A DNA stretch of 10,203 bases from Thermoleophilia bacterium (lineage in GTDB: Bacteria; Actinomycetota; Thermoleophilia; Gaiellales; JAICJC01), in NCBI GenBank assembly GCA_025928435.1, contig JAICJM010000145.1:1-10203 (forward strand), read 5' to 3'. Both the position numbers and the translations under genes were made by a program. Shown here one piece after another: positions 532-10,203 of this stretch. Below the pieces are notes generated by a model that made no database searches, had not been told where the DNA came from, and worked only from the letters and a program-made list of their open reading frames with translations. Each line of letters opens with the position of its first letter. Within the stretch, counting starts at the first letter, position 1.

Positions 532-1725
532 TCACGAGTTCTTGATGTCGGTCCAGGCCGTCGTCCACCCGGAGTACGGGATGCACTTCTGCCCGCGGGA
601 GTCGCCGCAGTCGGTCAGCGGCGTCTTCCAGTAGGCGATCTTCTTGAAGTAGTTCTGGTCGGTCACGTGGTAGTCGGTGCAGTAGTTCGCGACCAGCTTG
701 TCCAGGATCGTGCACGCCTTCGGGTTGGCCGGGGCCGACCCGAACGTGTAGGCGGTGTGCGCCTGCGTGAACGGCTCCGTCGCCCACTTCATCCACATGA
801 GCATGCAGTTCGGGTGCTTGGCCTGGGACGAGAGCATCCAGGTGTCGGCCCAGCCGGTCGCGCCCTCCTTCGGGAGCACCGTCGCGACGGGCTCATGCAG
901 ACCCTTGAGCGTGTTGTACTGGTACGGCCAGGTGGGGCCGATCACGATCGACTTCTGCTTGAAGTCCTGGATCTGCGTCGTGTAGCTGCCCCAGTAGTTG
1001 CCGATCTGGGCCCGCTGCTTCTTCAGCAGGGCCACCGCGGCGTCGAACTGGTCCTGCGTCAGCTCGTACGGATCGGTGATCTTGAGGTCGCCTCTAGTCG
1101 CCTTCAGGTACACCGCCGCGTCGGCGATGTAGATCGGGCTGTCGTAGGCGTCGACCTTGCCCTTGTAACTCGAGCCGTCGAAGATCACGCCCCAGCTGGT
1201 GGGGGCGGGCTTGACGACCTCGGTGTTGTACATGAGCACGTCGGCGCCCCACTCGTAGGACACGCCGTAGTGCAGGCCGCCCACGGTGTTGTGCGGGGGC
1301 GACTGGAGCGGCGCCGAGATGTCCTTCCAGTCCGGGATCAGCTTCTGCACGTCGACCGGGACGACGTCGCCGGCCGCGATCAGCCGGTTGGTCGCGTCGC
1401 CCGAGGCGCTCACGCCGTCGTAGTTGCCCGACCGCATCAGCTGCACCATCTCGTCCGACGTCTGGCCGTAGGTGACGTGCACCTGGCAGCCCGTGTTCTT
1501 CTCGAACGGCTTCACCACGTCCGGCTCGGTGTAGCCCTGCCATGCGATCAGGCTGAGCGCGCCCTCGCCGGCGCCGATCTTCTCGACCACGTTCGTGTCG
1601 CCGCCCCCGCCGCCGCCACCACCGCCGCCGCCGCCCGCGCCGCCACCGCCGCTCGAGCCGCCGCAGCCGGCCGCCACGGCCAGCACCACAGTCGCCGCTA
1701 TCAGGGCGATCCATCGCTTGGTCAT
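532..1725 (-). CDS. potD: Polyamine-type ABC transporter substrate-binding lipoprotein, PotD-like
   Basis: The gene encodes 397 residues, the expected size for a spermidine/putrescine-type binding protein. An n-region with K3 and R4 leads into a hydrophobic stretch and the lipobox VAAGC, giving lipidated Cys21 and anchoring outside the membrane. A low-complexity linker follows, with 12 consecutive glycines at 31-42. The periplasmic-type fold begins near 56 with a LSLIAWQGY stretch, typical of PotD-like proteins. Later landmarks are a YEWGADVLMYN segment at about 157-167 and a GPTWPYQY segment at about 263-270. Six cysteines in the mature domain (80, 307, 338, 349, 373, 381) could form disulfides. 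The ATG at 1723-1725 overlaps the ATPase TGA as ATGA, which suggests translational coupling, and it also has its own AAGGAG 8 nt upstream. The ligand (putrescine, spermidine or another cation) is not determined. Confidence 0.92.
   Translation of the reverse strand: MTKRWIALIAATVVLAVAAGCGGSSGGGGAGGGGGGGGGGGGDTNVVEKIGAGEGALSLIAWQGYTEPDVVKPFEKNTGCQVHVTYGQTSDEMVQLMRSGNYDGVSASGDATNRLIAAGDVVPVDVQKLIPDWKDISAPLQSPPHNTVGGLHYGVSYEWGADVLMYNTEVVKPAPTSWGVIFDGSSYKGKVDAYDSPIYIADAAVYLKATRGDLKITDPYELTQDQFDAAVALLKKQRAQIGNYWGSYTTQIQDFKQKSIVIGPTWPYQYNTLKGLHEPVATVLPKEGATGWADTWMLSSQAKHPNCMLMWMKWATEPFTQAHTAYTFGSAPANPKACTILDKLVANYCTDYHVTDQNYFKKIAYWKTPLTDCGDSRGQKCIPYSGWTTAWTDIKNS
1600..1635. repeat. Trinucleotide GCC-type repeat encoding 12 glycines
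   Basis: Twelve consecutive glycine codons, nearly all GGC with a few GGT and GGG on the coding strand, lie just after the lipobox of the binding protein. Slippage would change length in steps of one residue without breaking the frame. A flexible tether between the lipid anchor and the folded domain is the likely role. Confidence 0.8.
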
Positions 1726-2816
1726 GCCGGGATCTCCTTCACCTCGTTTTCGCGATCGGCGCCGTCCACCGGACGGTTGTGCTGCCGATCCCAGACAAGG
1801 CGGACCTGCCGTCCGCGCGCGGCCAGCGCCTGCATCGACGACGTGGCCTGGTTCTGCTGCACCACCACCAGCTCGCTCCCCGCGCCGAGCTGCACGATGT
1901 AGCGGGTGTTGACCCCCAGGTAGACGACCTCCGAGACGATGCCCTCGGCGCTGCAGCGGTCGGGCCCCGGCTCCTCGCCGGGCTCCGCCAGGTGGATCTT
2001 CTCGGGCCGCACGGTGAACGTGCCGTCGGCCCCGGTGATCGCGCGCGCGACCTCGCCCGTGATCAGGTTGGACGTACCGACGAAGCCGGCCACGAAGGCG
2101 GTCGCCGGGCTCTCGTAGACCTCGGCCGGCGAACCGACCTGGTCGATCCGGCCCTCGTTGAAGACCGCCATCCGGTCGCTCATCGTGAGCGCCTCGTCCT
2201 GGTCGTGGGTGACGAACAGGAACGTGATGCCCACGTCCTTCTGGATGGCCTTCAGCTCGATCTGCATCTGCTCGCGCAGCTTCAGGTCGAGCGCGCCCAG
2301 GGGCTCGTCCAGCAGGAGCACGCGGGGCCGGTTCACGAGGGCGCGGGCGAGCGCGATCCGCTGCCGCTGGCCGCCCGAGAGCTGGCCCGGCCTGCGCTTC
2401 TCGTAGCCGGACAGGCGCACCATGTCGAGCGCCTCGCTCACGCGGCTCGCCCGCTCCTTCTTGGCCACCCGCTTCACCATCAGCCCGTAGCCGACGTTGT
2501 CGCCGACGGACATGTGCGGGAAGAGCGCGTAGTCCTGGAACACCGTGTTCACGTCGCGTCCGTAGGGCGGCAGCCGCGACACGTCGGCGCCGTCGAGGAG
2601 CACCGTCCCGGCCGTCGGCAGCTCGAACCCCGCGATCAGGCGCAGGGTCGTCGTCTTGCCCGAGCCGGACGGGCCGAGCAGGGTGAAGAACTCGCCCGCC
2701 CGCACCTCGAGGTCCACGCGGTCCACGGCAACGACGTCGCCGTAGGTCTTGCGCACACCCTGGAGGCTGACGGCGGGTGCTGAGCTACCGGCGGGGCTAG
2801 CCGACGGCTGCGCCAA
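1722..2816 (-). CDS. potA: Polyamine-type ABC transporter ATP-binding protein, PotA-like
   Basis: The 364-residue protein is the cytoplasmic ATPase that powers the importer. Visible motifs are Walker A GPSGSGKT at 48-55, Q-loop Gln94 in VFQDYALFP, signature LSGGQ at 146-150, Walker B LLLDEP at 167-172, D-loop GALD at 174-177 and H-loop His204 in THDQDEA. The segment from about 250 to 345 fits the TOBE-type regulatory domain of the PotA/CysA/MalK group. The start is TTG at 2814-2816, inside the end of the aminotransferase gene (20-nt overlap), with GAGGAG 4 nt upstream. No ATG or GTG lies between it and the conserved domain. The stop overlaps the binding-protein ATG. Assignment to the polyamine/GABA importer type rests on the neighbours. 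The ATPase alone could also serve an iron or sugar importer. Confidence 0.92.
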   Translation of the reverse strand: MAQPSASPAGSSAPAVSLQGVRKTYGDVVAVDRVDLEVRAGEFFTLLGPSGSGKTTTLRLIAGFELPTAGTVLLDGADVSRLPPYGRDVNTVFQDYALFPHMSVGDNVGYGLMVKRVAKKERASRVSEALDMVRLSGYEKRRPGQLSGGQRQRIALARALVNRPRVLLLDEPLGALDLKLREQMQIELKAIQKDVGITFLFVTHDQDEALTMSDRMAVFNEGRIDQVGSPAEVYESPATAFVAGFVGTSNLITGEVARAITGADGTFTVRPEKIHLAEPGEEPGPDRCSAEGIVSEVVYLGVNTRYIVQLGAGSELVVVQQNQATSSMQALAARGRQVRLVWDRQHNRPVDGADRENEVKEIPA

Positions 2817-4086
2817 GCGACTCCTCGAGCCGGTCGAGCCCCGCCTCCACGTCCTCGTCGGGGGCCGTGATCGGGACCAGGATGCGGATGACGTTGTCGT
2901 AGATGCCGGTCTTCAGCAGGATCAGGCCGCGATCGAGCGCCCCCGCGACCACCGCCGCCGCGACGTCCGCCGCGGGCTCCTTCCCGACAGGGTCCTTGAC
3001 GAGCTCGATGGCCGCCATCGGGCCGATCCCGCGCACCTCGCCGATCACCGGGTGCCTCGAGGCGAGGTCGCGCAGACGGGCGCCGATGCGCTCGCCGACC
3101 TCGACCGCGCGGGCCAGGAACTCCTCGCTCGAGATGGCGCGCAGGCTCTCGATGGCCGCCGCGCAGGCGACCGGGTTGCCGCCGTACGTGGAGCCGAGCC
3201 CGCCCGGGTGCACCGAATCCATCACCTCGGCGCGGCCGATCACGCCCGCGAGCGGCATCCCCGACGCGAGCGACTTGCCGACCGTGACCATGTCGGGGAC
3301 GACGCCCGAGTGCTCGATCCCCCACAGCGTGCCGGTGCGGCCCATGCCGGCCTGCACCTCGTCGTCGATGTAGAGGATCCCGTGGCCCTCGCAACGCTCC
3401 TTGAGGCCCTGGATGAACTCGGGTGGCATGACGGTGAAGCCGCCCTCGCCCTGCACCGGCTCGAGGATGACGCACGCCACCGAGGCCGGGTCTACGGTCG
3501 CCTTGAACATCCAGTCGAGCGCGTCGAGCGCGTCCTTCGCGCTGATGCCGCGGTACGGGTAGGGCGCCGTCGCGCGGTAGATCTCGGGCGCGAACGGCCC
3601 CATGCCGCGCTTGTAGACCAACTTCGACGTCAGCGACATCGTGAGCAGCGTGCGCCCGTGGAAGCCGCGGTCGAACGTGATCACCGCGTCCCGCCCGGTG
3701 TGGTAGCGGGCGATCTTGATCGCGTTCTCCACCGCCTCGGCGCCGGAGTTGATCAAAAGCGCCTTCTTGTCGTGGCTCCCCGGGGCGAGCTCGCACAGCA
3801 TCCTGCAGACCTCGAGGTACGGGTCGTACGCCGCCACCGGGAAGCAGGCGTGCACGAGCTGCTCGGCCTGCTCGCGGATGGCCGCCACGACCGCCTCGGG
3901 CGTGTGGCCGAGGTTGAGGACGCCGATGCCGCCGGCGAAATCGATGTATTCGCGCCCGTCCACGTCGGTCAGCCGGGCGCCGTGGGCGTGGTCGGCGAAG
4001 ATCGGTGCGATGGAGACGCCCCGGGCGACGTACCTGTCGCGCTTCTCGAGGAGCGCCTCGGTCTTTCGGCCTTGCTGAACTGCCAT
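2797..4086 (-). CDS. gabT: Class III PLP aminotransferase, GabT-like (4-aminobutyrate transaminase)
   Basis: The 429-residue length is normal for GabT. It is a fold-type I PLP enzyme that would transfer the omega-amino group of GABA or a similar substrate to 2-oxoglutarate, giving succinate semialdehyde. Visible landmarks are NSGAEAVENA at 113-122 (cofactor phosphate binding), GFHGRT at 141-146, ILEPVQGEGG at 207-216, the PLP-nitrogen Asp in IDDEVQ at 240-245, and Schiff-base Lys271 in VGKSLASGMPLAGV. The last motif closely resembles E. coli GabT. The chosen start is ATG at 4084-4086. The frame stays open upstream to 4170, but those 28 residues look unconserved and run into the promoter region. 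It is the first gene of the pot operon, so uptake and the first catabolic step would be co-expressed. Lysine, ornithine or 5-aminovalerate transaminase activity cannot be excluded. Confidence 0.9.
   Translation of the reverse strand: MAVQQGRKTEALLEKRDRYVARGVSIAPIFADHAHGARLTDVDGREYIDFAGGIGVLNLGHTPEAVVAAIREQAEQLVHACFPVAAYDPYLEVCRMLCELAPGSHDKKALLINSGAEAVENAIKIARYHTGRDAVITFDRGFHGRTLLTMSLTSKLVYKRGMGPFAPEIYRATAPYPYRGISAKDALDALDWMFKATVDPASVACVILEPVQGEGGFTVMPPEFIQGLKERCEGHGILYIDDEVQAGMGRTGTLWGIEHSGVVPDMVTVGKSLASGMPLAGVIGRAEVMDSVHPGGLGSTYGGNPVACAAAIESLRAISSEEFLARAVEVGERIGARLRDLASRHPVIGEVRGIGPMAAIELVKDPVGKEPAADVAAAVVAGALDRGLILLKTGIYDNVIRILVPITAPDEDVEAGLDRLEESLGAAVG
2817..2826 (-). promoter_or_regulatory. 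Ribosome-binding site that decides the potA TTG start
   Basis: On the minus strand GAGGAG (2821-2826) sits 4 nt before the TTG at 2814-2816, inside the last codons of the aminotransferase gene. It supports TTG as the start and suggests that potA translation is coupled to ribosomes finishing the upstream gene. Confidence 0.6.
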
Positions 4087-4124
4087 TTTGGAACCCCCGC
4101 GGAGGAGCGATGCATACGCCGCCG

Positions 4125-4132
4125 AGTATAAG
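4125..4132. promoter_or_regulatory. Candidate shared -10 region for the divergent operons
   Basis: This short A/T island, within a GC-rich 137-nt divergent gap (4087-4223), reads TATACT on the minus strand (4130 to 4125) and TATAAG on the plus strand (4127-4132). Each matches the TATAAT consensus at five of six bases. Neither strand has a convincing TTGACA-like -35 at 16-18 nt, which would fit promoters that need an activator. The rest of the gap shows no other clear motif. Low confidence. Confidence 0.35.
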
Positions 4133-4210
4133 GGTCGTGGGCCCGTGGCGGGGGCTCGCTCCGGTAGCATTGGCCGCGGTGTCCAACAGCCGGCATGGGC
4201 ACCGCCATCG

Positions 4211-4216
4211 AAAGGA
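4211..4216 (+). promoter_or_regulatory. Ribosome-binding site that fixes the omega-aminotransferase start
   Basis: AAAGGA lies 7 nt before ATG 4224. The same frame is open further left, but that upstream extension crosses the divergent promoter gap and antisense gabT codons, so this site picks the correct start. Confidence 0.7.
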
Positions 4217-4223
4217 TCTGAGC

Positions 4224-5624
4224 ATGACGGACCACGCCAACCTGCAGGACCTCGCGAAGCAGCACCTGATGATGCACTTCACGAGCCAGGGCCGCTTCGC
4301 GAGCGAGGAGGTGCCCATCATCGAGCGCGGCGACGGCTGCTGGCTCTGGGACATCAACGGCAAGCGCTACTTCGACGGGATGTCGGGCCTGTTCTGCACC
4401 CAGATCGGGCACAGCTACGGCGCGGAGCTGGGCGAGGCGGCGTCGAAGCAGATGGCGGAGCTCGGGTTCTTCATCAACTGGAGCTACGCGCACCCGCGGG
4501 TGATCGAGCTCGCCGCGAAGATCGCCGAGATCGCCCCCGGCGACCTCAACCGCACCTTCTTCTGCTCCGGCGGCTCAGAGGCGAACGACTCGATCATCAA
4601 GCTCGCCCGCCAGTACCACCAGATCCGCGGCGAGGGCCGCCGCTACAAGATGATCGCGCGCCGCACCGCGTATCACGGCACGACGCTCGGCGCGCTCTCC
4701 CTGACGGGGATCGCCTCGATCCGCAACCCGTTCGAGCCGCTGCTCCCGGGCGCCCGCCACGTCTCGAACACGAACGCCTACCACCGCCCGGACGGCGAGA
4801 CGGAGGCCGAGTTCACGGCGTTCCTGCTCGACGAGCTGCGCGGCGTCATCGAGCAGGAGGGGCCGGAGACGATCTCGGCCCTGTTCGCGGAGCCGGTGCA
4901 GAACTCGGGCGGCACGTTCACGCCGCCGGAGGGCTACTTCCAGGGCGTCCGCGCGATCTGCGACGAGTACGGCATCCTGCTCGTGGCCGACGAGGTCATC
5001 TGCGGGTTCGGCCGGCTCGGGTACTGGTTCGGCTCGGAGCGCTACGACATCCGCCCCGACATCGTCACCTTCGCCAAGGGCATCGGCTCGGCCCACGTGC
5101 CGCTCGGCGGCGTGATCATGACCGACAAGGTCGCCGCGCCCTTCCTCGAGGGCACGAACATGTTCGTGCACGGCATCACCTACGGCGGCCACCCGGTCTC
5201 GACCGCGGTCGCGCTCAAGAACCTCGAGATCATGGAGCGCGAGGACGTACTCGGGAACGTGCGCCGCAACGAGCCGTACTTCAAGGCGGTGCTCGAGAAG
5301 CTCGGCGACAAGCCGATCGTCGGCGACGTGCGCGGCGCGGGCTACTTCATGTCGCTCGAGCTCGTGCGCGACAAGGAGACGAAGGAGACCTTCTCCGACG
5401 AGGAGGCCGACCGGCTGCTGCGCGGGTTCCTCTCGCCTCGGCTCTACGACGCGGGTCTCATCTGCCGCGCCGACGACCGCGGCGATCCGGTGGTGCAGCT
5501 CTCGCCGCCGCTCGTGGCGACGCGCGAGGACCTCGACTACGTGCACGACGTGCTCGACACCGTGCTCGACGAGGCCTGGACGGAGATGAACCGCTCCGGC
5601 CGCCGCGAAGCCGTTACTTCCTAG
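4224..5624 (+). CDS. Class III PLP aminotransferase, omega-amino acid/diamine:pyruvate type
   Basis: The 466-residue enzyme differs clearly from the divergent GabT-like protein and belongs to the omega-amino-acid:pyruvate / putrescine:pyruvate (SpuC-like) branch. Landmarks are an aromatic early segment with GLFCTQIGHSYG at 55-66, CSGGSEAND at 114-122, YHGTTLGALS at 150-159, FAEPVQNSGG at 221-230, ADEVICGFGR at 255-264 with PLP-pairing Asp256, Schiff-base Lys285 in TFAKGIGSAHVPLGG, and TYGGHPVSTAVA at 319-330. Such enzymes deaminate putrescine, beta-alanine, taurine or related amines, usually with pyruvate as acceptor, leaving an aldehyde. The substrate is not determined. It is the first gene of the plus-strand operon, and its stop lies 12 nt before the PucR-family regulator. 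Given the adjacent polyamine importer, a diamine or omega-amino acid is the best guess. Confidence 0.88.
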   Translation: MTDHANLQDLAKQHLMMHFTSQGRFASEEVPIIERGDGCWLWDINGKRYFDGMSGLFCTQIGHSYGAELGEAASKQMAELGFFINWSYAHPRVIELAAKIAEIAPGDLNRTFFCSGGSEANDSIIKLARQYHQIRGEGRRYKMIARRTAYHGTTLGALSLTGIASIRNPFEPLLPGARHVSNTNAYHRPDGETEAEFTAFLLDELRGVIEQEGPETISALFAEPVQNSGGTFTPPEGYFQGVRAICDEYGILLVADEVICGFGRLGYWFGSERYDIRPDIVTFAKGIGSAHVPLGGVIMTDKVAAPFLEGTNMFVHGITYGGHPVSTAVALKNLEIMEREDVLGNVRRNEPYFKAVLEKLGDKPIVGDVRGAGYFMSLELVRDKETKETFSDEEADRLLRGFLSPRLYDAGLICRADDRGDPVVQLSPPLVATREDLDYVHDVLDTVLDEAWTEMNRSGRREAVTS

Positions 5625-5636
5625 CGGTCGCGGCCG

Positions 5637-6770
5637 GTGCTGACGGTCTCAGACATCGTCGGGATCGAGGCGCTCAAGATCACCCTCCGTGGGGGCCGGT
5701 CCGGCGCGGGCCGGCCCGTGCGGTGGGTGCACATCTCGGAGCTCGACGACCCCACCCCATGGCTGCGCGGCGGCGAGCTCCTGCTGACGACGGGCCTGCC
5801 GCTGCGCAACGGCCCGGCCGCGTACCTCGAGCAGCTGGCGGACGCCGGCCTGACCGGCATGGGGCTGGGCCTCGGGTTCGGCTTCGACGCGGCGCCCGCC
5901 GACGCCGTCGCGGCCGCCGACCGGCTGGGGTTCCCGCTGTTCGAGATCCCCTACCAGGTGCCGTTCATCGCGCTCACGGAGGCCGTGTTCACCCGCATCT
6001 CCGACGCCCGCGTGGCCGAGACGGTGCGGCGCCTGGCCGGCGACCTGGTCGAGGCCGTGCTGAGCGGTGAGGCCGGGGTGCGCGAGCTGCGCCGGCGAGC
6101 GCGCGCGTTCGGCCTGCGGGGAACGCTGCCGCTCTCGTTCCTGGCGCTGCGCCCGGCCACCGACGAGGCGGCGACGCTGGCCCGCCTGGCCGAGGCGGCG
6201 GGGCGGTTCGGCCCGGCCAGCGTCCGCGACGGCGTCGTGGCCGTGCTGATCGAGGCCCGCGACGACGGCGAGGCGGAGCAGACGGCCGCCGACGTCCTGC
6301 GTGAGACGGGCGCCGGCGCCGCCGGGGTGGGGCGCGTGCGCACCGATCCGGGCGAGCTGGCCCGCAGCTACGACGAGGCCCTGTACGCGGTCGAGGCCAG
6401 GCCGGTGAACGGGACGCCCGCCGTGGCCACGTTCCGCGACCTGGGCTCGATCCAGCTCCTGCTCTCGCTCGGCGACGAGCGCGGCGTCGAGCTCTACTGC
6501 GAGTCGATGCTCGGCCCGCTGCGCGCCCACGACGCCCGCTACGGCTCGGCGCTGCTCGAGTCGCTCGCCGCCTACATCGAGGCCAACGGCCGCTGGGCGG
6601 ACGCCGCGGCCGCCCTGGGCGTGCACCGGCACACGCTGCGCTACCGGATCCGCAAGATCGAGACGCTCACGGGCCGCAAGCCCACCGACGCCCGCGACCG
6701 GCTCGAGCTGTGGCTGGCGCTGCGCGCCCACGAGCTCCAGGGCCGGCGGGAGCTGGAGCCCGTGCCGTGA
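5637..6770 (+). CDS. PucR-family transcriptional regulator
   Basis: The 377-residue cytoplasmic regulator has the three-part PucR architecture. The N-terminal PucR sensor-like domain spans about 1-125, beginning with LTVSDIVGIEALK and containing a VRWVHISELDDPTPWLRGGE stretch. A middle GGDEF-like region lies at about 150-275. A C-terminal HTH_30 DNA-binding domain spans about 305-365, with the helix-turn-helix around 320-342 (AAALGVHRHTLRYRIRKIE). Relatives control purine catabolism, GABA use and other nitrogen-source pathways as ligand-dependent activators. The start is GTG 5637, only 12 nt after the aminotransferase stop, without a good ribosome-binding site, so it probably relies on coupling. 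Its own stop overlaps the next GTG as GTGA. The likely targets are this operon and the divergent gabT-pot operon, though no operator can be recognised. Confidence 0.9.
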   Translation: MLTVSDIVGIEALKITLRGGRSGAGRPVRWVHISELDDPTPWLRGGELLLTTGLPLRNGPAAYLEQLADAGLTGMGLGLGFGFDAAPADAVAAADRLGFPLFEIPYQVPFIALTEAVFTRISDARVAETVRRLAGDLVEAVLSGEAGVRELRRRARAFGLRGTLPLSFLALRPATDEAATLARLAEAAGRFGPASVRDGVVAVLIEARDDGEAEQTAADVLRETGAGAAGVGRVRTDPGELARSYDEALYAVEARPVNGTPAVATFRDLGSIQLLLSLGDERGVELYCESMLGPLRAHDARYGSALLESLAAYIEANGRWADAAAALGVHRHTLRYRIRKIETLTGRKPTDARDRLELWLALRAHELQGRRELEPVP

Positions 6771-7915
6771 GCCGCGTGTGCGTGGTCGGCGCGGGCGGCA
6801 TCATCGGCCCGGCCATCGTCGCGACGCTCGCCGGGGAGGACGCGGTCTCGGAGATCGCCTGCCTGGACGTCGACGGGGAGCGGGCCGCCGAGGTGGCGGC
6901 CGCCCGCGGCGGCGGCAAGGCGATGGGCGCGGCGCTCGACATCCGCGACGCCGGCGCCGCGAAGGAGGCGCTCGCCGGCGCCGCCGTGCTCGTGAACACG
7001 GCCGCCTACCGGGTGAACCTGGCCGCGATGGAGGCTGCGCTGCACGCAGGGACGCACTACATCGACCTGGGCGGGCTCTTCCACGTCACCCGCGAGCAGC
7101 TCGGCCTGGACGAGCGGTTCCGCCGGGCCGGACTGCTGGCCGTGCTGGGCATGGGCTCGACGCCGGGGAAGACGAACGTGATGGCGGCGCGCGCGGTCGA
7201 GCTGCTCGGCGGCGAGGTCGAGCGGATCGTCGTCGCCGCATCCGGGCGCGATCCCGATCCGCCGCCCGGGCCGCTCGTCGCCCCGTACGCCGTCGAGACG
7301 ATCCTGGACGAGCTGACGATGCCGACTCCGGTCGTCCGCGACGGCGAGGTGCGGATGCTCGAGCCGATGACCCCGGCCGGCGTGGTCGAGTTCGGCGACC
7401 CGGTCGGCCCGGCCGAGACGGTCTTCACGATCCACTCGGAGATGGCGACGTTCCCGGCCAGCTTCGGCGCCCGCGACGTCGGCTTCCAGCTCTCGCTCGA
7501 CCCGGCCTTCCTGGCCAAGGTGCGGCTCCTGGCGGAGCTCGGGCTCGCATCGACGGAGGCCGTCGAGGTGGACGGGAGCGCCGTCGCGCCCCGCCGCCTG
7601 CTGCTCGAGCTGCTCCGGCGGCTGCCGCGGGCCGAGCCGTCGCGGCGGACGGTCGGCGTGCACCGCATCGAGGCGTACGGCCCGTCCGGGACGGCGGTGG
7701 TCGAGTGCGTCACCCGCGCCGTCGAGGGGCTCGGCTTCGGCGGCGGCATCGCGTCGACCGCCTGCCCGCCCGCCGTGGTGGCGGCGATGATCTGCCGCGG
7801 CGAGCTCGATGCCCGCGGCGTCGTCCCGAGCGAGCGGTCGGTGCCGTTCGGCCCGCTGTTCGAACGGTTGCGCGCGTACGGCGTCGAGGTGCGGGAGGAG
7901 GCGCGGGCGGCGTGA
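6767..7915 (+). CDS. Saccharopine-dehydrogenase-like NAD(P)-binding oxidoreductase, substrate unknown
   Basis: The 382-residue protein opens with a Rossmann fingerprint, VCVVGAGGIIG at 4-14, and an acidic residue at the end of the second strand (CLDVDGERA), as in NAD(H) enzymes. A VLVNTAAYRVN stretch and a GTHYIDLGGLF stretch follow, then GMGSTPGKTN. These are the usual landmarks of the saccharopine dehydrogenase superfamily. That superfamily includes saccharopine reductase, carboxynorspermidine synthase and L-lysine 6-dehydrogenase, all of which act on amines or form C-N bonds, which suits this locus. I cannot choose among them. The start is GTG 6767, overlapping the regulator stop (GTGA), with GGAG 8 nt upstream. 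The in-frame ATG at 6710 lies inside the regulator gene and is rejected. The stop overlaps the hydrolase GTG in the same way, so these genes are tightly coupled and probably act together. Confidence 0.82.
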   Translation: MSRVCVVGAGGIIGPAIVATLAGEDAVSEIACLDVDGERAAEVAAARGGGKAMGAALDIRDAGAAKEALAGAAVLVNTAAYRVNLAAMEAALHAGTHYIDLGGLFHVTREQLGLDERFRRAGLLAVLGMGSTPGKTNVMAARAVELLGGEVERIVVAASGRDPDPPPGPLVAPYAVETILDELTMPTPVVRDGEVRMLEPMTPAGVVEFGDPVGPAETVFTIHSEMATFPASFGARDVGFQLSLDPAFLAKVRLLAELGLASTEAVEVDGSAVAPRRLLLELLRRLPRAEPSRRTVGVHRIEAYGPSGTAVVECVTRAVEGLGFGGGIASTACPPAVVAAMICRGELDARGVVPSERSVPFGPLFERLRAYGVEVREEARAA

Positions 7916-8727
7916 CCGTCCGCGTCGCCGTCGGCCAGACGCCGCTCACGGCGACGCTGGACGAGGCCGTGCCGGCGGCCGTGGCCGCGATCGAGGAGGC
8001 CGCGCGGCTCGGGGCGCGGGTGCTGTGCCTGCCGGAGACGTGCCTGCTTGGGCACCGCTCCCAGCCCCGCGCGGTGCCGGACTACACGGCCCCAGAGCTC
8101 GAGGCCGCGGTCGACGCGGTCGCGGTGGCAGCCGGTCGTGCGGGCGTCGTCACCATCGTGGGCGCCGAGCGGCCGACGGCCGCGGGCCGCGAGATCGTGG
8201 CCGTCGTGGTCGACATCGACGGGGGCCGGCTCGGCGTACAGGCGAAGACGCAGATCGACCCGTCCGAGGAGCGCGACTACGTCCCGGGCAGCGGCCGGCA
8301 CGTCTTCGAGGCCGCCGGCATCCGGTTCGCCGTCGTCATCTGCCACGAGGCCTTCCGCTACCCCGAGCTGGCCCGCGCGGCGGCACTCGACGGCGCCCAG
8401 GTCGTGTTCGTGCCCCACTTCGTCGTCACGGACGACGGCTCGCTCGCCCGGCAATGGTGCGACGCGGCCAACCCGTACAACGAGAAGGCCCTCCTCTGCC
8501 GCGCCCTCGAGAACACGGTCTACGTCGCGGCCGCGAACGCCGCGGCGCCCGACCAGGGATCGGCCAGCTGCGTCATCTCGCCCGAGGGCGCGCTGCTCGC
8601 GCAGGTGCCGTACGGCCGCTCCGGGGTCGCCGTCGCGGACATCGACCCGGCCCGCGCGGACGGCCTCATGGCGCGCCGTTTCGCGCCCGAACGGAACCGC
8701 CGTGAACCGGGGACTGTCCCCGCTTGA
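7912..8727 (+). CDS. Nitrilase-superfamily carbon-nitrogen hydrolase
   Basis: The 271-residue cytoplasmic amidase-type enzyme has the full Glu-Lys-Cys triad: Glu42 in LCLPETCLLG, Lys112 in VQAKTQIDPSEERDYVPG, and nucleophile Cys144 in VVICHEAFRYPEL. The accessory Glu lies near 119-120. The length and the YVPG motif fit the amidase, carbamoylase or omega-amidase branches better than true nitrilases. N-carbamoylputrescine amidase would suit a putrescine locus, but omega-amidase or beta-ureidopropionase activity is equally open. The start is GTG 7912, overlapping the upstream TGA (GTGA), with GGGAGGAG at 7893-7900. It is the last gene of the operon. The last five residues (GTVPA) and the stop codon come from an inverted-repeat element at 8709-8741, so the native C-terminus may have been altered. 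Confidence 0.88.
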   Translation: MTVRVAVGQTPLTATLDEAVPAAVAAIEEAARLGARVLCLPETCLLGHRSQPRAVPDYTAPELEAAVDAVAVAAGRAGVVTIVGAERPTAAGREIVAVVVDIDGGRLGVQAKTQIDPSEERDYVPGSGRHVFEAAGIRFAVVICHEAFRYPELARAAALDGAQVVFVPHFVVTDDGSLARQWCDAANPYNEKALLCRALENTVYVAAANAAAPDQGSASCVISPEGALLAQVPYGRSGVAVADIDPARADGLMARRFAPERNRREPGTVPA

Positions 8728-8741
8728 CGGGGACAGTCCCC
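8709..8741. terminator. Perfect inverted repeat (GGGGACTGTCCCC / GGGGACAGTCCCC), probable operon-end structure or REP-like element
   Basis: The 13-nt arms at 8709-8721 and 8729-8741 are perfect reverse complements. G8722 and C8728 add a fourteenth pair, leaving a 5-nt loop that contains the hydrolase TGA. Each arm is also nearly palindromic (GGGGAC-T-GTCCCC), so two smaller hairpins could form instead. There is no T-run after the stem, so if it terminates transcription it does so without the classical tail. The position between the catabolic operon and the leuA promoter suits an insulator. The compact symmetric form also resembles a dispersed repetitive palindrome. Which of these it is cannot be settled from one copy. 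Confidence 0.7.
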
Positions 8742-8762
8742 ACGCTGCGCGCCGGTTCCCGT

Positions 8763-8792
8763 TTGACGGATCAACCTTCGCGCACCTATGCT
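8763..8792 (+). promoter_or_regulatory. Sigma70-like promoter for the leuA leader
   Basis: TTGACG at 8763-8768 (five of six matches to the -35 consensus) is followed after 18 nt by TATGCT at 8787-8792 (four of six matches to the -10 consensus). It lies just after the inverted repeat and is the best-formed promoter in the window. Transcription would start near 8798-8800, leaving a leader of about 215 nt before leuA. Confidence 0.65.
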
Positions 8793-8803
8793 GTGCGAGA
8801 GAG

Positions 8804-8917
8804 ATGCCGAGCTACGCCTGCACAGAGAGGACATTCGCCCGCTCCCCGCTGAGCGGGCGTCCTGTCGGGCGCTCAACGGACAACCTCCTCGGCCTTCTCC
8901 TCATCCTCGCCCGCTAG
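8804..8917 (+). CDS. leuL: Leucine-rich leader peptide of leuA (37 aa)
   Basis: The small ORF starts at ATG 8804 and stops at TAG 8915. Its C-terminus reads [11 protein letters not shown], with six leucine codons (five CTC, one CTT) plus one isoleucine among eight codons at 8885-8908, just before the stop. Leucine-rich leader peptides ahead of leuA are classic sensors of charged leucyl-tRNA. The first two CTC codons lie within the segment that is complementary to the leuA ribosome-binding site. The start is less certain than the end. ATG 8804 is the only in-frame ATG, GTG or TTG, but it has only GAGAGAG directly abutting it and would lie about 4-6 nt from the predicted transcription start, so translation may be nearly leaderless. 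The product itself probably has no function. Confidence 0.72.
8836..8859 (+). promoter_or_regulatory. Hairpin inside the leader ORF, upstream of the Leu codons
   Basis: A perfect 9-bp stem pairs 8836-8844 with 8851-8859 around a 6-nt loop. It lies within the leader ORF, about 25 nt before the first leucine codon of the run. It may slow or pause polymerase so that the first ribosome catches up, as pause hairpins do in attenuators. That role is inferred. Confidence 0.5.
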
Positions 8918-9005
8918 GGCGAACGACTTGGCCTACGCGCCGGCCTTCGGCGCACACGCACCCGAGTCCCGACGGGAGAGTTGCGCTCTCCCCCAGCCGA
9001 GGAGG
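8884..9005 (+). promoter_or_regulatory. Candidate leucine-responsive element sequestering the leuA ribosome-binding site
   Basis: CCTCCTCGGC at 8884-8893, which contains the first two leucine codons, is the exact reverse complement of GCCGAGGAGG at 8996-9005, the leuA ribosome-binding site. The 10-bp helix would enclose three local hairpins: 8907-8912/8917-8922 across the leader stop, 8937-8942/8948-8953, and 8974-8980/8986-8992. A short hairpin at 8967-8970/8974-8977 competes with the last one. In the inferred model, leucine scarcity stalls the leader ribosome on the Leu codons, covers 8884-8893 and frees the leuA site. With ample leucine the ribosome reaches TAG 8915, leaves that segment exposed, and the site is masked. 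Translational leucine control of leuA by leader elements has been proposed for actinobacteria. Confidence 0.6.
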
Positions 9006-9006
9006 A
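8999..9006 (+). promoter_or_regulatory. leuA ribosome-binding site
   Basis: GAGGAGGA ends about 8-9 nt before ATG 9015, a strong site with normal spacing. It fixes the leuA start and is the target of the long-range pairing with the leader Leu codons. Confidence 0.85.
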
Positions 9007-9014
9007 TCCCGCTG

Positions 9015-10203
9015 ATGGCAGTACCCACGGACACCGTCCGCATCTTCGATACCACGCTCCGCGACGGCGAGCAGTCGCCCGGCATCGCGTTGTCGGCTCC
9101 CGAGAAGATCGAGATCGCCCGCCAGCTCGACCGCCTGGGGGTGGACATCATCGAGGCCGGGTTCGCCATCTCCTCCCCCGGGGAGCGTGAGGGCATCCGC
9201 GCCGTCGCCGAGGCCGTCGACTGCGTCGTCGCGTCGCTCGCGCGCACGAACGACGAGGACGTCGACGCCGCCATCGAGTCGCTCCAGGGCGCGCGCAACC
9301 CGCGCATCCACGTCTTCATCGCCACCTCCGACATCCACATGGAGCACAAGCTGCGCATGACCCGCGCGCAGGTGCTCGAGGGCGCCGACCGGGCCGTCCG
9401 CCGCGCGAAGGCGTTCTGCAGCGACGTCGAGTTCTCGTGCGAGGACGCGACCCGCAGCGACCCCGACTTCATGGCCGAGGTCGTGCGCACGGCGATCGCC
9501 GCCGGCGCGACCACGATCAACATCCCCGACACGGTCGGCTACACCGTGCCCGAGGAGTACATCGAGATCCTGAACGGCCTGCGCCGGCGCGTGCCCGAGG
9601 TGGATGGGGTCGTCCTCTCGGTGCACTGCCACGACGACCTGGGCCTCGCGGTCGCGAACTCGCTGGCCGGCGTCATGGCGGGCGCCCGCCAGGTCGAGGC
9701 GACCATCAACGGGATCGGCGAGCGGGCCGGGAACGCCTCGCTCGAGGAGATCGTGATGCTGCTCGCGACCCGCGCGCCGCGCTACGGCCTCCGGACGAAC
9801 CTGCGCACCGAGGAGATCACCCGCACCTCGCGGCTGGTCTCGCGCCTGACGGGCTACGTCGTGCAGCCGAACAAGGCGATCGTGGGCCGCAACGCATTCG
9901 CCCACGAGGCCGGGATCCACCAGCACGGCGTGCTGGCGAACCGGCGCACCTACGAGATCATGGACGCCGAGTCGGTCGGCCTGCAGGGCTCGGACATCGT
10001 GCTCGGGAAGCACTCGGGCCGCCACGCGCTGCGGCAGGCGTTCGCCGACCTGGGCTTCACCATCGAGGGCGACGACCTCAAGCGCGCCTTCGCCCGCTTC
10101 AAGGAGCTGGCCGACCGCAAGGGCAAGATCAGCTCGCTCGACCTCGAGGCGATCGCGTCCGACTCGCTGCGCGACCGCGAGGAGCCGTACAAGCTCGTGC
10201 GAC
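9015..10203 (+). CDS. leuA: 2-isopropylmalate synthase (partial, C-terminus beyond the right edge)
   Basis: The first 396 residues of the first committed enzyme of leucine synthesis are present. It condenses acetyl-CoA with 2-oxoisovalerate in the cytoplasm. The catalytic TIM barrel starts with [13 protein letters not shown] at 11-23, where Arg16 and Asp17 are active-site and metal residues. [10 protein letters not shown] and [12 protein letters not shown] follow. The metal-binding HCHDDLG is at 204-210 and [14 protein letters not shown] at about 232-245. The subdomain part is seen in [20 protein letters not shown] and GKHSGRHAL. The sequence follows E. coli LeuA closely along its length, so it is the short LeuA type. 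The C-terminal leucine-binding allosteric domain would lie beyond the edge. Homocitrate and citramalate synthases share the barrel, but the close match and the leucine-rich leader favour LeuA. It has its own promoter and is unrelated in function to the catabolic operon. Confidence 0.95.

Follow-up and report, generated by a model that had tools for sequence, protein, structure and literature searches.

Introduction

The closest described counterparts of the locus studied here are the LEU elements of actinobacteria, in which a leader open reading frame (ORF) with a run of leucine codons precedes leuA and these codons pair with the leuA Shine-Dalgarno (SD) sequence, forming a base stem whose interior folds as a pseudoknot or as an alternative hairpin (Seliverstov et al. 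2005, PMC1262725). In its passages on mechanism, the same paper disfavours both a riboswitch and classical attenuation and suggests a regulatory protein instead, with orthologues of ML1624 as candidates; it also recounts that leader mutations of S. coelicolor leuA had some effect, of a kind inconsistent with classical attenuation, and its conclusion states that mutations in the Leu codons were without influence on regulation (PMC1262725). Two further leaders are described from individual species: the S. lividans peptide LeuL1 has 15 residues (MRFGLLLLSCRGEGL) and a transcript measured to be leaderless (PMC8079986), and the C. glutamicum leuA leader peptide cg4015 is presented as a putative transcription attenuator (PMC4046766).

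Here we follow up a leader in a stretch of DNA of 10,203 nucleotides (the window) from a bacterium of the class Thermoleophilia, with the leader features given on its forward (+) strand. A preliminary description of the window had remarked that leucine leader control of actinobacterial leuA had been proposed before. This is true, and the direct pairing of Leu codons with the SD is likewise already published for other actinobacteria in the 2005 text (PMC1262725). A literature search for leader peptides in Thermoleophilia found no paper, and related searches returned no title on the class.

Results

A leucine-run leader precedes leuA in Thermoleophilia

The leuA gene (2-isopropylmalate synthase; 9015-10203) starts at ATG 9015 and is cut by the window end, so that only its 5' part is inside. 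Its product matches Pfam PF00682 (HMGL-like) and PF22617 (HCS_D2); the nearest relatives are found in two genomes, at 98% (G287) and 97% identity, and a Thermoleophilia MAG (L001) carries a leuA with 86% identity to that of the window. Further upstream, at 532-8727, lie genes for a solute-binding protein, an ABC ATPase, two class III aminotransferases, a PucR-type regulator and a carbon-nitrogen hydrolase, which look like an amine or amino acid catabolic cluster adjoining leuA. A palindromic repeat at 8709-8741 (GGGGACTGTCCCCG-loop-CGGGGACAGTCCCC) adjoins the leuA promoter. It is a dispersed REP-like element: the exact-arm pattern occurs at 21 places in G287, at 2 in G199 and at none in three further family genomes, and at the same place the palindrome is present in L081 and a different one in L082.

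The sole promoter-like site in 8650-9100 is a predicted promoter at 8763-8792, made up of TTGACG (8763-8768), an 18-nt spacer and TATGCT (8787-8792), which ends 11 nt upstream of the leader ATG. Corresponding sites exist in five relatives (L081, L082, L083 and L085, with that of L084 identified by eye). Across 133 leaders the best promoter site scored 7.2, against 4.2 in shuffled DNA; the first value is favoured by the choice of the best among several starts. A transcript beginning downstream of 8885 would lack the leader ORF; the predicted promoter lies upstream of that ORF.

The ORF itself (8804-8917) consists of an ATG at 8804-8806, 37 sense codons in all and a TAG stop at 8915-8917. Near its end, codons 28-35 (8885-8908) read LLGLLLIL, so that six of eight codons specify Leu, each of them CTC or CTT, just as the preliminary description had it. 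The suggestion made there, that relatives be searched for the Leu run, was borne out: at 120 of 127 loci, leuA is preceded within 420 nt by a leader ORF in which four or more of eight codons specify Leu. Besides the window, these loci comprise 16 of 80 named ones and 110 (loci or regions) taken from a search of 299 genomes of the class, 206 of which contain this leuA; some of the named loci duplicate genomes of the 110-locus set. The 120 include L190, whose leader, 387 nt from leuA, looks spurious. Seven loci (L084, L126, L127, L146, L155, L006 and L012) were without a qualifying leader. One of these, L084, belongs to the window's family and keeps the Leu run, the hairpin and, by eye, a 12-nt SD complement, but its leader stop is lost (TAG to TTG) and the frame extends 236 nt into leuA, which is either a natural variant or an assembly error.

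Within the window's order, this leuA type is present in 18 of 129 genomes (E<=1e-140) and the other type (type II) in 34 of 129 (E<=1e-150). Type II loci of the order also carry Leu-run leaders (22 of 30, with none at 7 and the leuA start not found at 1); a Leu leader can therefore precede either leuA type. Leader Leu codons (n=666) are 53% CTC, 31% CTT and 13.5% CTG, whereas those inside leuA genes (n=1474) are 51% CTG, 41% CTC and 4.5% CTT. Since CTC and CTT are read by one common tRNA, the leader bias could serve the sensor, the pairing or both.

The sensor codons are an exact complement of the leuA SD

The segment 8884-8893 (CCTCCTCGGC), which holds the Leu28, Leu29 and Gly30 codons together with the preceding base, is the exact reverse complement over 10 nt of 8996-9005 (GCCGAGGAGG), the leuA SD box with its upstream flank. 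Both the perfect match and the identity of sensor codons and anti-SD strand, as first described, thus hold on the sequence. Within 8760-8985 no longer complement of 8986-9017 exists, the next being one of 7 nt that belongs to a local hairpin.

Because CTC runs resemble an anti-SD, we used synonymous recodings of the leader, with codon use taken from 44 leuA genes, as the null. A perfect match of at least 10 nt to the ribosome-binding region arose in 157 of 1500 recodings of the window leader, and the SD was hidden by default (P free <= 0.01) in 53 of 150; the 10-nt match alone is therefore only mildly unusual and constitutes weak evidence. Of greater weight is the probability of pairing between the SD and the final 28 codons of the leader, which is 1.0 for the natural window sequence; recodings average 0.61, and none of 40 attains 1.0.

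The same comparison was extended to 134 distinct leaders (of 143), with leuA starts and SD positions set by a script rule and the starts of L003, L092, L093, L096 and L221 corrected by hand. The mean probability of the SD being paired with the leader was 0.655 in natural and 0.541 in recoded sequences, exceeding 0.5 in 95 and 81 leaders, respectively. When only the last 36 nt of the leader were considered (109 leaders), SD pairing was 0.38 natural versus 0.20 recoded and exceeded 0.5 in 45 versus 16. Leaders also formed stronger duplexes with their own SD (-19.7 kcal/mol) than when recoded (-18.7) or swapped (-18.3), the own SD beating the swapped one in 68 of 109, although p-values from the recoding and swap tests are too small because related leaders count as independent. 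With the target defined as the stretch from 20 nt past the stop to the ATG, four of six groups lacked an excess of natural over recoded pairing (natural higher in 2/5 for the window family, 1/12, 9/22 and 6/23) and the remaining two had a slight one (21/38 and 21/34); we suspect that recoding with CTG increases GC pairing in general.

A single pairing register across the class was sought and not found, as the best complement shifts between leaders. Judged by eye, the window has it at Leu28-29; L083 and L085 have it further along, at later Leu codons; several of L086-L095 use the last Leu codons together with Pro; and members of the NLLAGRG group use an upstream Leu pair. The DLRLLLL subgroup is mostly without a base stem between Leu codons and SD.

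The leader is predicted to fold around the SD helix

When the leader was folded with the pairing allowed, as had been proposed at the outset, the minimum-energy structure of 8799-9025 included the SD helix (z -4.34 against 200 shuffles), with a base stem that encloses three local hairpins. Hairpin H1, inside the leader ORF (8836-8859; 8836-8843 with 8852-8859), is 94.2% paired in 15 sequences, one pair being G-C in 9 and C-G in 6. A second hairpin (8908-8921), with the leader stop codon in its loop and a closing stem of 8908-8912 with 8917-8921, is invariant in the six family members, one pair being C-G in 9 and G-C in 6 of the 15. The six pairs of H3 (8937-8953; 8937-8942 with 8948-8953) are all invariant in the six family members, which speaks neither for nor against the structure, and H4 (8974-8992; 8974-8980 with 8986-8992) is 85.7% paired in the same six, with no double change.

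Covariation was assessed in two alignments. In the first (A1, the six sequences of the window's family) the base stem is 88.3% paired, and pair 8887/9002, at the third base of Leu28, is C-G in 3 sequences, G-C in 2 and U-G in 1. Because the two G-C carriers, L083 and L085, are closely related, the change from C-G to G-C was probably one event. Covariation in A1 was not significant, its whole-structure score being reached by 31 of 500 shuffles. The covariation between 8884-8893 and 8996-9005 that the preliminary description had proposed looking for thus amounts to one compensatory pair, short of significance. In the second alignment (A2, 15 sequences) H1 and the stop-codon hairpin each have one pair changed on both sides; none of 500 shuffles reached the covariation score or the percentage paired, but nearly all (499 and 492 of 500) reached the two measures based on counts of pairs and types. 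Covariation thus lends moderate support to H1 and the stop-codon hairpin and weak support to the base stem.

Two familiar classes of leader were considered and set aside. Identity with a riboswitch or T-box was rejected for want of a match to a curated Rfam family, the window giving no match at the gathering threshold and nine at E<=10, all unrelated and far below gathering. A classical transcription attenuator was likewise dropped, there being no terminator hairpin with a U run between leader and leuA; the search found no terminator-like site anywhere in 8650-9100, in keeping with the original view that the switch could do without one.

A modelled ribosome on the Leu run frees the SD

The ribosome covers positions -14 to +16 from the P site, and in our masking model this footprint was forced to be single-stranded, codon by codon along the leader. 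In the window, the modelled probability of a free SD rises from 0.002 in the absence of a ribosome to 0.51-0.55 when the A site is at codons 28-35, and is 0.00 at codons 36, 37 and the stop (38). The SD is thus at most about half open, Ser24 and Thr25 also open it (0.51 and 0.45), and other footprint sizes shift the edges of the switch by one to two codons. Its amplitude is 0.54, compared with a mean of 0.19 in recodings, and 0 of 150 recodings reach that value. The behaviour that marks a translational attenuator, an SD that is hidden and then freed on the sensor codons, is seen for the window in the masking model only.

Among 23 other modelled leaders, 11 behave like the window to some degree (L081, L082, L086, L088, L090, L124, L128, L137, L157, L165 and L174). 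The other 12 are without its pattern. Three of these (L117, L150 and L187) have a largely open SD even with no ribosome present, and two (L208 and L243) do not close at the stop. The response is flat in L094, L248 and L251, and opening is confined to one or two codons in L098 and L104; L083 closes further, and L085 does not change at the stop. The modelled mechanism thus has its strongest support in the window and some of its relatives. The proposal that ribosome position alone could switch leuA holds up in so far as the model switches on the right codons with no terminator; as to its simple geometry, the stem encloses three hairpins and the register drifts.

The window leader is a variant of the LEU element

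The window shares with the LEU element, as the 2005 text presents it, a Leu-run leader ORF upstream of leuA, a base stem between Leu codons and SD, and the lack of a terminator; it differs in belonging to the class Thermoleophilia, in preceding a LeuA of the other type and in having no pseudoknot, in place of which there are hairpins around the leader stop and inside the stem (PMC1262725). The comparison covered the pseudoknot form of that element, the alignment of its alternative hairpin form being printed as a figure (PMC1262725). A crude helix search for the LEU pseudoknot (two interleaved helices in the base stem) gave z -0.15 in the window, did not find it in the 19 Thermoleophilia leaders examined out of 134 (z averaging 0.07 and at best 1.39), and recovered it in 9 of 10 hand-picked Actinomycetia-like type II leuA leaders, with z >2 in 6; these ten are so labelled because L197, L199 and L200 encode the LeuL1 ending GLLLLSCRGEGL. 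The window leader would therefore work like a LEU element and yet is a variant, since one defining feature, the pseudoknot, is missing.

Likeness to the single-species leaders is looser. The window has in common with S. lividans LeuL1 a Leu-rich leader before leuA, no typical terminator and a transcript start near the leader start, but LeuL1 has 15 residues rather than 37, and the leaderless start that is predicted here was measured there (PMC8079986). Like cg4015 it has consecutive Leu codons before leuA; the passages on cg4015 present a putative transcription attenuator and do not describe SD pairing, which the window has (PMC4046766). Leucine attenuators with an intrinsic terminator also occur among our leaders: four of 134 (L223-L226) have a terminator-like site past the Leu run, as do L203, L207 and L218; L205, L206 and L209 look terminator-like by eye but failed the script. 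These seven have a Leu-run leader before leuA, as the window does, but their output is a terminator, which the window lacks. In erm-type translational attenuation a stalled leader ribosome frees a hidden SD, the signal being an antibiotic; in the window the signal would be a missing amino acid, and the stall codons are themselves the anti-SD. As a separate observation, L223-L226, leaders of type II leuA in the window's order, end in TLLLSL followed by a terminator-like hairpin and a T run.

Leaders of the DLRLLLL kind had at first been taken as a plain counter-example to pairing. This was dropped once the Leu third base was found to match a downstream CG-N-AG word in 13 of 25 LRLLL leaders (p 0.0002; permutation gave a mean of 5.9); pooled, the other three third bases did so in 7 of 75. 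In DLRLLLL leaders (L113, L117, L122, L129, L150, L152, L187 and others), the Leu codons covary with a strand located at the SD or upstream of it instead of pairing with the SD core. Taken together, the CG-N-AG match and the terminators suggest one sensor with several outputs.

Discussion

We regard a leucine-responsive translational attenuator of leuA as the best explanation of the window leader, and as a reasonably probable one. The transcript would start just before the leader ORF, which would then be translated. By default, with leucine plentiful, 8884-8893 would pair with the SD at 8996-9005 around the local hairpins and leuA translation would be low. Were charged tRNA(Leu) for CUC and CUU to become scarce, the leader ribosome would wait with its A site on one of Leu28-Leu35 and cover 8884-8893, so that the SD would be freed and leuA translated; a ribosome at the stop would already have left 8884-8893, allowing the stem to re-form. 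The pairing of Leu codons with the SD, together with the switch in the masking model, supports this attenuator, and the 12 of 23 leaders that do not follow, the non-significant covariation and the S. coelicolor mutants count against it.

Alternatively, the SD pairing might be a by-product of CTC runs that merely resemble an anti-SD, with the Leu run sensing leucine and control exerted by another switch, such as the local hairpins, other pairing or translation-coupled mRNA decay. The frequency of chance matches in recodings (157 of 1500), the drift of register, the DLRLLLL pairing with a strand at or upstream of the SD, and the better covariation of H1 and the stop-codon hairpin than of the base stem all fit this reading; since natural leaders hide the SD more than recoded ones do and none of 150 recodings reaches the window's switch, we consider it unlikely. 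Rho-dependent transcription control, in which untranslated C-rich leader RNA is terminated unless covered by ribosomes, would agree with the C-rich Leu codons and the lack of an intrinsic terminator in 8650-9100, and the terminators that end related leaders in the phylum show that transcription control exists nearby, but it leaves the SD complement and the geometry of the switch unexplained and seems to us distinctly improbable. We give still less credence to a regulatory protein that binds the leader, the mode of control put forward in 2005 for LEU elements with orthologues of ML1624 in mind (PMC1262725): the leader is structured (z -4.34), but the pseudoknot proposed as part of the LEU element is absent here and the masking model needs no protein. 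That there is no regulation at all is scarcely credible, because, common as ORFs and CTC-rich matches are in GC-rich DNA, a chance ORF with a chance match is largely disfavoured by the Leu-run ORFs at 120 of 127 loci and at 22 of 30 type II loci, the promoter counterparts in relatives and the covarying hairpins.

Returning to the attenuator and its relatives, we tentatively propose, with rather less confidence than for the window itself, that a single, ancient Leu-codon sensor of Actinomycetota has come to drive outputs that can replace one another. In Actinomycetia-like leaders the output would be SD pairing with a pseudoknot; in the window and some of the other Thermoleophilia, SD pairing with a stop-codon hairpin; in the DLRLLLL subgroup, a helix involving a strand that lies at the SD or upstream of it; and in other lineages, as well as in L223-L226 of the window's own order, an intrinsic terminator. 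The Leu third bases would then be under double selection, by the one tRNA(Leu) and by RNA pairing, and the sensor would stay in place while leuA swaps between two LeuA types.

What is new here is that the pairing occurs in Thermoleophilia, before the other LeuA type and in a different RNA shape. The genomes listed in the 2005 study include none that we take to be Thermoleophilia. The authors of that paper did not fix the mechanism of their element and inclined to a binding protein (PMC1262725); for the window leader, ribosome position alone would, on paper, suffice. Our comparison suggests that the sensor, the pairing and the inner structure of such leaders evolve separately, which, if true, would help annotators to find leaders that lie outside any Rfam family.
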